DNA of 22,498 nt from a virus: positions 1 through 22,498 of IMG/VR virus record IMGVR_UViG_3300010155_000107, one strand, 5' to 3'. Shown here piece by piece: positions 22 through 15,521 of the stretch. A program made the translations under genes and the position numbers. How positions within the stretch are numbered: the first letter of the stretch is position 1; the number at the start of each line of letters is the position of its first letter. The notes under the pieces are model-generated. The model was not told the DNA's origin. It saw nothing but the letters and a program-made list of their open reading frames with translations, and made no database searches.

Positions 22-50
22 TTGATATTGTTTTACGTATATGAGATAAT
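22..50 (+). promoter_or_regulatory. sigma70-type early promoter
   Basis: TTGATA at 22-27 and GATAAT at 45-50 are separated by exactly 17 bases, which is close to the consensus for the bacterial housekeeping sigma factor. Transcription would begin near position 57. It lies upstream of the non-coding region and all the small genes that precede the phage RNA polymerase, which is where T7-like phages keep the promoters read by host polymerase. The match is seen directly; its activity is inferred. Confidence 0.7.
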
Positions 51-56
51 ATATTT

Positions 57-540
57 GTAGAGTAACCAATTTGCGTAAAGATACGCCTGTGGTAACACTA
101 ATCTTACCTATGTAATTAGGTTGCATTAAGAGGAAATTGGCAGAAAACTACTCATTTAAAGGTATGAGTGAAGTGTCTGGAATATGATGTAAGATTCATT
201 AGGTCATGGGAGGATAAGACAGGTCTCGACTCCGACTCTACTCAGGAACAACAGTGAGGTGTTAAGTTGTGGCATAGTTGACTGAGCTATGTCTTGAATA
301 AGCCTCAAGGAAAGTATGTGAGGTATACTTAAAGGTGCGTAGGAGGTCGCTCCGAAGCCAAGAGCAAGTAAGAAATATACTTTCCGATTACTTAGAAAGG
401 ATTAAAAGAATGATAGTGGTTATTGACGTAATAATTGTACAGCCCACTTCATAAAGACTTGAGCATACGACTCAGAGGGGAAGTCTTAGACCATAACTGC
501 TTGGTTAGTTTACGAACCTTATTACTTTAACTTTAAACTG
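57..540 (+). ncRNA. putative structured leader RNA, unknown family
   Basis: About 480 bases without a substantial reading frame lie between a strong promoter and the first protein gene. By hand count 80 of 180 bases at 181-360 are G or C (44%), against 25% at 12841-12900. Local hairpins include 73-77/82-86, 106-110/117-121, 150-155/164-169, 271-277/287-293 (extended by 262-265/294-297 and 255-259/303-307), 312-317/325-330, 342-345/350-353 and 454-460/481-487. Helix 66-72/134-140 closes two of them into a junction, and 415-423/493-501 closes another domain with two G-U pairs. I do not recognise tmRNA, RNase P, a tRNA or a self-splicing intron core. Any one of these short helices could be chance; the case rests on their number, the G+C and the lack of genes. 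It could instead be a long untranslated leader. Confidence 0.4.
410..454 (+). CDS. possible 14-codon leader peptide
   Basis: ATG at 410 is preceded by AAAGGA at 396-401, a reasonable ribosome site, and encodes MIVVIDVIIVQPTS before TAA. The peptide is very hydrophobic. It sits inside the putative structured RNA, so translating it would disturb the nearby helix 415-423/493-501. It may be chance: a 14-codon frame is not significant alone. It is listed because the ribosome site and start fit well. Confidence 0.15.
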   Translation: MIVVIDVIIVQPTS

Positions 541-550
541 GAGAATCAAT

Positions 551-763
551 ATGGAATGGAAGGATATGATAACTGAGACTCTTGAAGAAGAGGAAAAAAT
601 GGTGATTAAATATAAAAGTGAATCCAAAGATGAGTTAATAGCTATTGAGGATATGCACCCTGAGCATTTAATCAATGCTATATACAAAGCAGTCAGAGAA
701 AACAAGCAAATAGTCTTTGAGGTACATAAAATTCTAATAGAGAAAGTTGTATGGAATGTATAG
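551..763 (+). CDS. small early protein, unknown function (70 aa)
   Basis: First protein gene after the promoter. The start is supported by GGAG at 540-543, eight bases upstream. The product is acidic in its first third (a run of glutamates around residues 12-15) and then has a short segment, MHPEHLINAIYKA, of a kind common in small phage proteins, but I cannot name a family. No signal peptide or membrane segment is visible. Its last 13 bases overlap the next start, implying translational coupling. By position it is a candidate host-takeover protein like T7's 0.x genes; that role is inference from place only. Confidence 0.7.
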   Translation: MEWKDMITETLEEEEKMVIKYKSESKDELIAIEDMHPEHLINAIYKAVRENKQIVFEVHKILIEKVVWNV

Positions 764-1631: not shown

Positions 1632-4073
1632 ATGAACATATTTGAAGAACAGAAAAAACTAGAAGAAGATATGATTGAATTCGGGATTGAGAAGTTCCGT
1701 AAACAAGTAAGAGAAGCAAAGAGTTCTTCCGCTGAGTCTACATCTTTACATGGCATTCTATTAATGAAACAGAGTGTAGACAAGTTTTCTAGAAAAATAG
1801 ATTCATTTATAGGTGAAGCATTACAAGGTGGTGCAGGAAGGAAAGCCCTTGCCGCACCTTTTCTAGCTATGTTGGAGTCAGAGGTATCAGCATTCATCAC
1901 TTTAAGATCCATTATGGATGGAATATCTAAATCTCAGAAACTAACTAATTTAGCTTTTAAGATTGGACAATCACTAGAAGATCAAGTAAAATTTAATTTA
2001 TATAGAGAGGGAGACAAGCATTATTTTGATTACTTAATGAAACAAGTAGGAAAGAGATCAGCATCTCGTCATTATCGTAGATATGGTTTACTAAAACATT
2101 GTAAACACAAGATAGATATAGAACATACCGACACATGGACGGTAACAGAACGAATCCAAGTAGGATTGAAGTGTGTAGATTTGTTAGTACGTTCAACTGG
2201 TCTAGTTAAGGTAGTGACTATGACTAAAAGTAGAAAGAAAAAGGAATTAACTATCCTTCCTACTGCCACCACGCTAGATTGGATTGAAAAGATTAATAGT
2301 AAGGGAGAATTACTTAGTCCAGCATACTCTCCAATGGTATGTACACCTTTAAATTGGACCTCACCTTATAGTGGTGGATATTTAACAAAAAGAATTAGAT
2401 TTATAAAGACCAGTAACAAGAATATAGCTAGTGAATTAGCTTATCACGACATGAAACAAGAGTATAGTTGTGTAAATGCATTACAAAATACTACATGGAA
2501 AGTAAATAAGAAAGTATTTCATACCATGTCGGAAGCATGGGAGCAAAGGATAAGTATTGGATCGTTACCAGATAGGACTGAAGCCACTATTCCACCATGT
2601 CCAGCCAGTAAGGGAATGAAGAAAGCGGATATGGACGAAGAGATGTATAAAAAGTTTATAGATTGGAAAACTATTGCATCAGAATGTTATGCAGAGAATG
2701 TAAGGAGAAAATCTAAGATACTACAGTTTATGAGAACCATTAAAATGGCAGAAAAATTTTCTAAGTATGAAAGTTTTTATTTTCCATACCAAGTAGATTT
2801 CAGAGGTAGAAAATACACTGTATCATCCTTTCTTACACCACAAGGTACAGAGTATGCAAAGGCACTACTAACATTCTCCAAGAGTTTACCAATTAAGAAC
2901 CAAGAACAGGTAGATTGGTTAGCAATACATGGTGCAAACTGTGCCGGAATAGATAAACACACCTTAAAAGAGAGAGTAGATTGGGTCTATGAAAACGAGA
3001 ATGAGATATTGGATTCAGCAAAACACGGATTAGATAGTGAATTCTGGAAAAAGGTTAGTGATCCTTGGTTATTCTTAGCATTCTGCTATGAGTGGGCGGG
3101 ATTTAAGAGGGAAGGTTTCGGTTATAAATCAAGTTTACCTATAGCCTTAGATGGTAGCAATAATGGGCTACAACATTATTCAGCGATGTTACGATGTAAA
3201 GTAGGTGGTCACGCAACAAATCTTATGGATAAAGAGCAACCACAAGACATATATCAAGATGTCGCTGATCATGTACTAAGAGAAGTAAGGAAGGAGATGG
3301 AAGACGGAGATGAGATGGCAGAGAAGTGGTTAAATTCTGGACTTATTAATCGTAAGATGACTAAACGACCTGTTATGGTAGTACCATATGGAGGTACAAG
3401 ATTTAGCTGTAGAAGTTACGTAGAAGAGTATGTTAGGGATTGTATTTATGAGGGACTTAACTATCCTTGGGATAAAAATCTTCCTTTGTACATACCTGTG
3501 AACTGGATTACAACTAGAGTGTGGAATGCTATCACAGAGGTAGTAGTGAGTGCAAAAGAGGCTATGGATTGGATTAGAAAAGTTTCAAGTATAATGAGTA
3601 AAGAAAATTATCCCTTGATATGGTGGATTCCATCTGGTATGATAATTCATCAACAATATAAGGACATATCTAAGAAAAAAATATTCACACATATTGATGG
3701 AATCCTAATTAAACCCACTATACAGATTGAGGATGATTCAGGAATTGATAATAGAAGATCTGTCAATGGTTCAGCACCTAATTTTGTACATTCTTTAGAT
3801 GCATGTGCATTGACCTTCACAGTAAATATGTGTATGGATGTAAATATACAATCATTCCAAATGATACATGATTCATATGGTACACATGCATCAAATACAC
3901 CTCAATTAGCACAATTATTAAGAAAAGCATTTGTTAAACTGTATCAAGAGTTTGATCCTCTTGATGAGTTTAAAAAATCAGCTTTGGAAGTGGTTGATTA
4001 TATTCCCAACCCACCAAAGAGGGGAGAGTTAGATATAACAGAAGTACTAAATTCTAAATACTTCTTTTGTTAA
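1632..4073 (+). CDS. T7-type single-subunit DNA-directed RNA polymerase (T7 gp1)
   Basis: This enzyme transcribes the phage's own middle and late genes and usually primes replication at its origins. The start at 1632 follows AAAAAGGAAGGA. At 813 residues it is somewhat shorter than T7's 883. The catalytic motifs are clear: motif A ALDGSNNG with D507 (T7 D537), motif B TKRPVMVVPYG with K578 and Y586 (T7 K631 and Y639, same spacing), and motif C MIHDSYG with D747 (T7 D812). The C-terminus ends YFFC where T7 has FAFA, the 'foot' that reaches the active site. It is transcribed early, downstream of the host-type promoter. The gene is complete with no frameshift. Assignment is certain; promoter specificity cannot be read from sequence alone. 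Confidence 0.98.
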   Translation: MNIFEEQKKLEEDMIEFGIEKFRKQVREAKSSSAESTSLHGILLMKQSVDKFSRKIDSFIGEALQGGAGRKALAAPFLAMLESEVSAFITLRSIMDGISKSQKLTNLAFKIGQSLEDQVKFNLYREGDKHYFDYLMKQVGKRSASRHYRRYGLLKHCKHKIDIEHTDTWTVTERIQVGLKCVDLLVRSTGLVKVVTMTKSRKKKELTILPTATTLDWIEKINSKGELLSPAYSPMVCTPLNWTSPYSGGYLTKRIRFIKTSNKNIASELAYHDMKQEYSCVNALQNTTWKVNKKVFHTMSEAWEQRISIGSLPDRTEATIPPCPASKGMKKADMDEEMYKKFIDWKTIASECYAENVRRKSKILQFMRTIKMAEKFSKYESFYFPYQVDFRGRKYTVSSFLTPQGTEYAKALLTFSKSLPIKNQEQVDWLAIHGANCAGIDKHTLKERVDWVYENENEILDSAKHGLDSEFWKKVSDPWLFLAFCYEWAGFKREGFGYKSSLPIALDGSNNGLQHYSAMLRCKVGGHATNLMDKEQPQDIYQDVADHVLREVRKEMEDGDEMAEKWLNSGLINRKMTKRPVMVVPYGGTRFSCRSYVEEYVRDCIYEGLNYPWDKNLPLYIPVNWITTRVWNAITEVVVSAKEAMDWIRKVSSIMSKENYPLIWWIPSGMIIHQQYKDISKKKIFTHIDGILIKPTIQIEDDSGIDNRRSVNGSAPNFVHSLDACALTFTVNMCMDVNIQSFQMIHDSYGTHASNTPQLAQLLRKAFVKLYQEFDPLDEFKKSALEVVDYIPNPPKRGELDITEVLNSKYFFC

Positions 4074-14297: not shown

Positions 14298-15521
14298 ATG
14301 AAAATATATACAGAAATAAATTATAAGTGGCTAGATGGTCAATTGGTAGAAACAGATTCTAAGTCTTTTGAATATGATGGAGAAGTAACTCTTTGTGGAG
14401 ATGTTGGAGGCTCATTGGGGGATGTAAAGAGTAAAGCTCAAGAGGCTGAAAGAAAATTTAAGGAAAAATTTGCAGAGACTGAAGCGGCTGCTAAAGCGGA
14501 GATGCGCCGGACTGAAGCGGCTGCTAAAGCGGAGGCACAACGGGCTGAAGCGGCTGCTAAAGCGGAGGCACAACGGGCTGCTGCTGCTGCTGAAGCGGCT
14601 AAAAAAGCGGCAACTAAAAAAGCTCAAGAGGCTGCTGATAAGTTAGCTGCGGAGACTGCACGGGCTACTGCTGCTGCTGAAGCGGCTGCCAAAAAGTTAG
14701 CTGATGATGCTAAAGCTGAAGCGGAACGTCAGGCTGCTGCTGCTGCTGAAGCGGCAAGAGTTGCTGCTGCTAAAGCAGAGGCCGAGCTAAAGGCTGCTGC
14801 AAAAGCTGCTGAAGAGAATGCTGCAAAAGCTGCCGCTGAAACTGCACGGGCTACTGAGGCCGCAAGAGTTGCTGCTGATAAGTTAGCTGCCGATGCAAAA
14901 GCTGCCGCAGCCTCTGCTTCTGATGCTACAAAGACTAATCTAGAATACGGAGCCGATGCAACAAAAGAGGCACTTGCCTCTGCTACGGACGCTACAAAGA
15001 CTAACCTAGAATATGGAGCCGATGCTACAAAAGAGGCACTTGCTGCCGCTACTGATGCTGGAAAGACTAACCTAGAATACGGAGCTGATGCTACAAAGGC
15101 TGCCCTTCATGCTGCTACGGACGCTGGAAAGACCAATCTAGAATATGGAGCCGATGCAACAAAGGCGGCCCTTCATGCCGCTGCTGATGCCACAAAGACC
15201 AATCTAGAATATGGAGCAGGATATGTTGAAGACCTGAGAGATGACTTATTTGAGAGATTTATTAATAAACCAATGGAAGAGGTAGCTGAAGAAACGACAG
15301 GTCTTGTATCTTCTATAAACACAACCGACACAGCCGATGATGACGGTACAACTGGAACTGATGGACTTTTAACGGGTGGAAATATAAATACATTTGCTAA
15401 AGGTAATAAAGGAAAGAAGAAGAAAAACAATCCCTTCTTAGCTATAAGTAAAGGGAAGAAATTTGCTAGAGGATCTACCAAATATAAACGATCTTCCGCC
15501 ACTTCTACTCTTAAAATTTAA
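14298..15521 (+). CDS. alanine-rich, TolA-like helical repeat protein (407 aa); T7 gp7.3 position
   Basis: Three parts. Residues 1-45 form a small domain (YKWLDGQLVETDSKSFEYDG). About residues 50-315 form an extremely Ala/Lys/Glu-rich helix: three copies of an 11-residue unit (EAAAKAEAQRA type) from residue 62, irregular TolA-like sequence, then a 22-residue unit (DATKTNLEYGADATKEAL...) repeated about 4.5 times from residue 209. Eleven-residue periodicity predicts a long straight or right-handed coiled coil. The C-terminus is basic (KGKKKKNN, ARGSTKYKRSS, ending TLKI) and recalls the basic Ser/Gly tail of T7 gp7.3. It is likely a virion, tail or ejected protein that spans a distance; that role is inferred. 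Local G+C is well above its neighbours because of alanine codons. No strong ribosome site precedes it; only one base separates it from the upstream stop. Confidence 0.75.
   Translation: MKIYTEINYKWLDGQLVETDSKSFEYDGEVTLCGDVGGSLGDVKSKAQEAERKFKEKFAETEAAAKAEMRRTEAAAKAEAQRAEAAAKAEAQRAAAAAEAAKKAATKKAQEAADKLAAETARATAAAEAAAKKLADDAKAEAERQAAAAAEAARVAAAKAEAELKAAAKAAEENAAKAAAETARATEAARVAADKLAADAKAAAASASDATKTNLEYGADATKEALASATDATKTNLEYGADATKEALAAATDAGKTNLEYGADATKAALHAATDAGKTNLEYGADATKAALHAAADATKTNLEYGAGYVEDLRDDLFERFINKPMEEVAEETTGLVSSINTTDTADDDGTTGTDGLLTGGNINTFAKGNKGKKKKNNPFLAISKGKKFARGSTKYKRSSATSTLKI
14481..14579 (+). repeat. three tandem 33-base (11-codon) repeats
   Basis: Units begin at 14481, 14514 and 14547 with the same 21 bases from the EAAAKAE codons; the second and third units are almost identical over all 33. 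They encode the 11-residue helical repeat of the alanine-rich protein. Confidence 0.9.
14922..15218 (+). repeat. tandem 66-base (22-codon) repeats, about 4.5 copies
   Basis: Units start at 14922, 14988, 15054, 15120 and 15186, exactly 66 bases apart, the last one half length. They differ mainly at third codon positions and in ATK/AGK and EAL/AAL choices, so the array is not brand new. Such an array can change copy number by recombination without breaking the frame. Confidence 0.92.

Follow-up and report, generated by a model that had tools for sequence, protein, structure and literature searches.

What occupies the long gene-free stretch at the early end of this phage DNA? The sequence analysed (the window) is a virus record of 22,498 bases, a fragment of an uncultured T7-like phage whose T7-like RNA polymerase is at most about 39% identical to those of cultured relatives. 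An earlier note, made from the sequence of the window, had proposed that positions 57-540 hold a structured RNA in a region without genes, unusual for a compact genome, and with raised G+C. Both background observations hold. Within 1-550 there is no plus-strand ATG ORF of at least 50 aa, and no other such gap in the window comes near this length (the next is 141 nt). The G+C content of 181-360, counted by hand as 44%, is 44.4% versus 35.2% overall, which is raised though not extreme, since 5.7% of 180-nt windows reach this value.

Three modules in the gene-free leader

Relatives were gathered by IMG/VR scans using the polymerase and DNA motifs; judging from the IMG sample numbers, these phages are presumably of marine origin. 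Blastn analysis revealed that the leader splits into three parts, each with its own distribution: A in the window and locus L033, B in the window, L009, L019 and L012, and C in two dozen contigs. No relatives of the leader were found in cultured phages, plasmids or GTDB genomes, and weak blastn matches at E 0.5-6 were discarded as chance. The features of the region, all on the plus strand, are as follows.

22-50, plus strand: sigma-70-like promoter site, TTGATA-17-GATAAT, with an extended -10 and a 10/12 consensus match
57-241, plus strand: module A, a putative multibranched RNA of about 185 nt
57-63/235-241, 66-72/134-140, 73-77/82-86 and 106-110/117-121, plus strand: predicted helices of A (closing helix, P2 and two hairpins)
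246-402, plus strand: module B, a putative RNA of about 157 nt
255-260/302-307 and 309-319/375-385, plus strand: predicted helices of B (arm and long helix)
411-520, plus strand: module C, a new RNA family of about 110 nt by covariance model R1 and covariation
411-451, plus strand: helix Pa of C (411-413/449-451 and 415-419/444-448)
436-441, plus strand: palindromic loop hexamer of C, UGUACA (other alleles UCCGGA and UCAUGA)
454-487, plus strand: helix Pb of C (454-459/482-487) with tip hairpin Pb2 (460-463/471-474)
475-520, plus strand: pseudoknot Pd of C (475-478/517-520)
489-506, plus strand: hairpin Pc of C (489-493/502-506)
551-763, plus strand: first early ORF 3' of the RNA block, 70 aa, without a family match
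1632-4073, plus strand: T7-like RNA polymerase (PF00940 and phrog_414), the anchor of the related loci

The near-consensus promoter of the earlier note corresponds to the promoter-like site at 22-50. A start from it would fall near G57, where the 5' strand of the helix closing A begins. By itself this site is no evidence and is not above chance, because comparable sites are as common in shuffled sequence; a scan of 1-1700 at a 9/12 threshold gave 4 sites versus 8.3 in shuffles. The folding energy of the whole leader is likewise unremarkable (z -1.7). Modules A and B fold better than their shuffles (z about -3.1 and -3.3, respectively), whereas C alone gives z +0.3, unremarkable because its pseudoknot is not scored. 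Folding energy was rejected as proof for C, the case for which is covariation.

Elsewhere in the window there are two sets of repeats. Positions 14446-15214, inside ORF 14298-15521, carry tandem coding repeats with 33-nt and 66-nt units, Ala/Glu-rich, and positions 850-946 contain a 43-nt direct repeat at a spacing of 54 in ORF 751-963, which encodes a small Lys/Glu-rich protein.

Structure and conservation of module C

The covariance model R1 was built from alignment A2, which holds 20 distinct C sequences, and gave 23 full-length matches (E < 1e-21) in 67 sources from IMG/VR early regions. On A2, 95.7% of cells pair in the proposed structure versus 91.9% in column shuffles (0/500); when the structure is slid by 1-3 columns, 33-50% of cells pair. 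We also aligned C by hand, guided by the structure, using 21 distinct rows including two divergent members. In this alignment Pb is paired in 126/126 cells with one pair changed on both sides, Pb2 in 70/70 with three, Pc in 105/105 with three and Pd in 81/84 with two; 0/1000 shuffles reach the count for each of Pb2, Pc and Pd, the alignment being fitted to the structure and the shuffle control keeping the relatedness among rows. An independent MAFFT alignment agrees for Pc and most of Pb2.

Pd occurs as GAGG/CCTC, AAGG/CCTT and ATGG/CCAT. Pc forms a series, GACCA/TGGTT, GGCCA/TGGTT, GGTCA/TGGCT and GGTCA/TGACC, and has therefore changed several times, with wobble (G-U) intermediates. The first pair of Pc is GU in 11 sequences and GC in 9; since such G-U pairs would be A-C on the opposite strand, the plus strand is the RNA. 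Pa is mostly invariant, with GTGG/CCAC in 20/20 and the outer pairs in 19-20/20; its pair 415/448 is AU in 10, UA in 4 and unpaired in 6, and the inner hairpin of Pa is not supported. Taken together, the comparison of homologues shows C to be a conserved plus-strand RNA with Pa as its 5' stem-loop and, after it, an H-type pseudoknot that bears a hairpin (Pb/Pb2, Pd and Pc). The earlier note had suggested collecting homologous leaders for a covariance model and comparing them with Rfam. The compensatory changes in C came out of the former; the latter, at gathering and at relaxed thresholds (E up to 5), gave zero matches in the window, including to GOLLD, ROOL, OLE and ribozymes. On this evidence C is a new RNA family without an Rfam match.

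When reading frames were compared among homologues, no frame was open across the members of C, which carry indels of 1, 2, 8 and 9 nt, i.e. including ones not divisible by three. Stops and frameshifts ruled out the HKDL frame as a gene running through C. The frame comparison shows that C is, to judge by its homologues, not a gene, and C covaries where no reading frame survives. A 14-codon ORF (MIVVIDVI..PTS*) overlaps Pa in most members, with its TAA stop where Pb begins; this frame is not kept in L142, L145, L147 and L155. In several phages its ATGA overlaps the upstream gene's stop codon, and the UGA/UCA at the base of Pa accounts for this ATGA as well. A leader peptide from this ORF is possible. 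A T7-promoter-like sequence in C, ATACGACTCA, was dismissed, as the window gave no match to the T7 promoter and homologues do not conserve the sequence.

The loop of Pa contains a six-base palindrome with the alleles TGTACA and TCCGGA, and TCATGA in the matching Pa domain of L006, L007 and L011. The palindrome is the only column window of A2 in which both alleles are palindromic. A divergent relative, L003, has TCTAGA in its 5' hairpin loop (position matched by eye). The halves of an uninterrupted palindrome cannot pair within one molecule, and switching from palindrome to palindrome therefore points to pairing between two copies. In OLE and GOLLD such switching has been taken as evidence of homomeric kissing loops (PMC12286853). 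A two-copy Pa fold is predicted to be more stable than two monomers, although any self-complementary RNA is favoured by such predictions. From the switching we consider that C probably pairs with another copy of itself through the Pa-loop palindrome.

Modules A and B, tRNA-Tyr and cassette exchange

Module A has a single homologue, in L033, about 91% identical over about 160 nt, in a phage whose RNA polymerase is only 59% identical. Two compensated changes separate the pair, in the closing helix (TAGAG/CTCTA to TGGAG/CTCCA, window to L033) and in a hairpin (CCTA/TAGG to CCCA/TGGG). Two further searches found only L033 plus chance 15-17-mers. A near-empty site for A exists in L031, L032 and L038, where the anchors lie 8 nt apart versus 199 nt in L033, as measured with fixed anchors, MAFFT having misaligned this site. 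Module B has four members (window, L009, L019 and L012) with two pairs changed on both sides, and in L009 and L019 it immediately follows the CCA end of tRNA-Tyr; a wider search for B gave no additional member. With 1 and 3 homologues, respectively, A and B do not allow a real covariation test or statistics, and their fold scores and few compensations lend thin support to both as RNAs.

Of the helices drawn in the earlier note, three (66-72/134-140, 73-77/82-86 and 106-110/117-121) have fully complementary strands and fall within or close to the fold predicted for A, and the extended arm at 255-307 recurs in that of B. The helix 415-423/493-501 is contradicted; it is 7/9 complementary, and homologues instead pair 415-419/444-448 and 489-493/502-506. 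The earlier note's view of 57-540 as non-coding and structured stands, while the single RNA gives way to three tandem modules. So corrected, to three separable modules and minus one helix, the structured-RNA interpretation is supported.

C always lies sense to the early operon; in most cases the upstream stop codon is no more than 10 nt away and the next start codon 10-40 nt away, and in L012 and L013 the genes after it have no obvious Shine-Dalgarno sequence. The genes flanking C on both sides vary between phages while C stays. A tRNA-Tyr gene is found in the same block of most relatives with enough upstream DNA; in the window, within the extent of the record, neither ARAGORN nor Rfam detected a tRNA or tmRNA. 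The order is tRNA-Tyr, B, C in L009 and L019; tRNA-Tyr, another closed RNA, B, small genes, C in L012; X, tRNA-Tyr, Y, a small ORF, C in L008; and small genes, then C in L013 and L014. In L162 the stretch found 3' of C elsewhere is present without C, a near-empty site. RNA polymerase similarity does not predict module content: L009 (polymerase 85%) has B and C in common with the window at about 98%, and L003 (93%) lacks A and B and has a C variant only. These comparisons show gain, loss and recombination of modules that do not follow the polymerase phylogeny, the modules behaving as discrete cassettes close to the tRNA-Tyr gene.

Further closed RNA elements, D, E, F, G and X, also recur in the same region of relatives. 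Rfam revealed only tRNAs in 13 related loci, and likewise in those loci with such elements that were scanned. Element E (L006:3128-3235, L008:3484-3590, L011:2895-3010, L013:1880-2075, L014:1170-1325 and L017:1090-1215) has a conserved core with a variable inserted arm, and both strands of its closing helix are replaced between phages (GTGTAGCG/CGCTACAC and GAATAGGTGTG/CACACCTATTC). It represents a second new RNA family, and Rfam gave no match to it among the scanned loci. Element D (L006:2962-3090, L007:1529-1657 and L008:3287-3418) closes with GTAGAGTG/CACTCTAC, resembling GTAGAGT/ACTCTAC, the closing helix of A, and the ends of F1 and F2 in L037 are similar. Common processing or recombination may lie behind such shared ends. 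Element G (L006:3449-3600 and L007:2039-2184) comprises a Pa-like 5' stem-loop (palindrome TCATGA) and then a long closing stem, GACAC.CCTATTCACTC/GAGTGGATAGG.GTGTC. A lone Pa-like domain lies directly 5' of tRNA-Tyr at L011:4766-4806, with model matches also in L170 and L173. The sequence GGACATTTACGWAGTAAAAGAGAATAAGC, absent from the window, is conserved ahead of early genes in many relatives (L162:1764, L141:330, L143:863 and, on the minus strand, L168:3657) and may be a promoter or another RNA element. Further long gene-poor stretches of raised G+C occur near tRNA genes at L049:5088-5553 and L037:3843-4246, and alone at L042:782-1019; no Rfam family besides tRNA was found in these three.

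Possible roles and comparison with known systems

We propose, with somewhat better than even confidence in the whole, that the leader is best explained as three independent units of folded RNA, arranged in a row within the early transcript. The structure of C is the part that covariation shows; its dimerization and an action in trans are what we infer beyond it. The units would be accessory RNA genes, freed from the early transcript along with tRNA-Tyr to act in trans at an early stage of infection, with C self-pairing as above. A role in trans is favoured over one in cis because the neighbours of C change while C does not, the modules are optional and tRNA-Tyr is among them, and we give this part a roughly even chance.

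Alternatively, C could be a cis-acting leader element whose pseudoknot governs how the genes that follow are translated or how their message decays, possibly in conjunction with the 14-codon upstream ORF ending at the Pb base. The constant sense orientation of C, its usual spacing to the neighbouring codons, the genes after it that lack an obvious Shine-Dalgarno sequence and the readability of the short frame in most members all speak for this, and we grant it an appreciable probability, though one well short of even, since the flanking genes vary by phage while C does not, C is missing at the same site in some relatives (L162) and four members do not keep the short frame. It is improbable that B or C, in the manner of theta ribozymes for phage tRNAs, cuts the early transcript beside tRNA-Tyr or directs its cutting. 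The location of B directly 3' of the tRNA-Tyr CCA in two loci fits such processing, as do ACAAC and GUUGU near its 5' end, which could form a pseudoknot with the 255-307 arm (by eye); B, however, leaves too little space for an HDV P3 hairpin, a position beside the tRNA is unusual for C and A, and no Rfam ribozyme matched at E up to 5. Least probable by far is an origin by decay of a protein gene. In L006 a frame spanning about 70 codons starts like the short ORF of C (by-eye translation), but the matching frame is already broken in L007 (by eye), and for C this origin is refuted by covariation of the core at paired positions without a shared open frame.

Returning to the three-unit reading, a wider version of it is tentative and rather unlikely to hold in full. 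A, B and C, with D, E, F, G and X in relatives, would form an exchangeable early set centred on tRNA-Tyr and swapped like anti-host genes, with C as a self-paired homodimer and the set acting in trans on the host, perhaps as decoys for its defences or RNA enzymes. Searches of early phage regions usually target small host-disarming proteins; in these uncultured phages, such a region holds exchangeable folded RNAs that are new to Rfam. C is in addition a short, testable RNA, with its covarying pseudoknot and a candidate homodimer contact.

Among known systems, the RNase III sites of the T7 early region are also structured stretches between the early genes of T7-like phages. Each is a long imperfect hairpin, whereas C is a pseudoknot with conserved helices of 4-8 bp. 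The stable RNAs C and D of T4 are small non-tRNA RNAs encoded with phage tRNAs, and the likeness is one of description only, T4 being unrelated to this phage. The HDV-like theta ribozymes of phages are located next to phage tRNAs (PMC10879173), a position that B alone shares; no HDV core, with its nested double pseudoknot, P3 hairpin and catalytic C, was recognised in B, which has only about 6 nt between the 5' strand of the arm and GUUGU (by eye). GOLLD and ROOL are phage-encoded ornate RNAs near tRNA islands (PMC12286853), and resemble the present modules as structured phage RNAs of unassigned role adjoining tRNA genes. At about 110 nt versus hundreds, C is smaller and has another structure, and several small RNAs stand in series here. 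What it has in common with GOLLD, ROOL and OLE is that its Pa-loop palindromes switch yet stay palindromic, a likeness of behaviour and not of membership. If C dimerises, it would allow natural RNA self-assembly to be studied on a model far smaller than GOLLD or ROOL.
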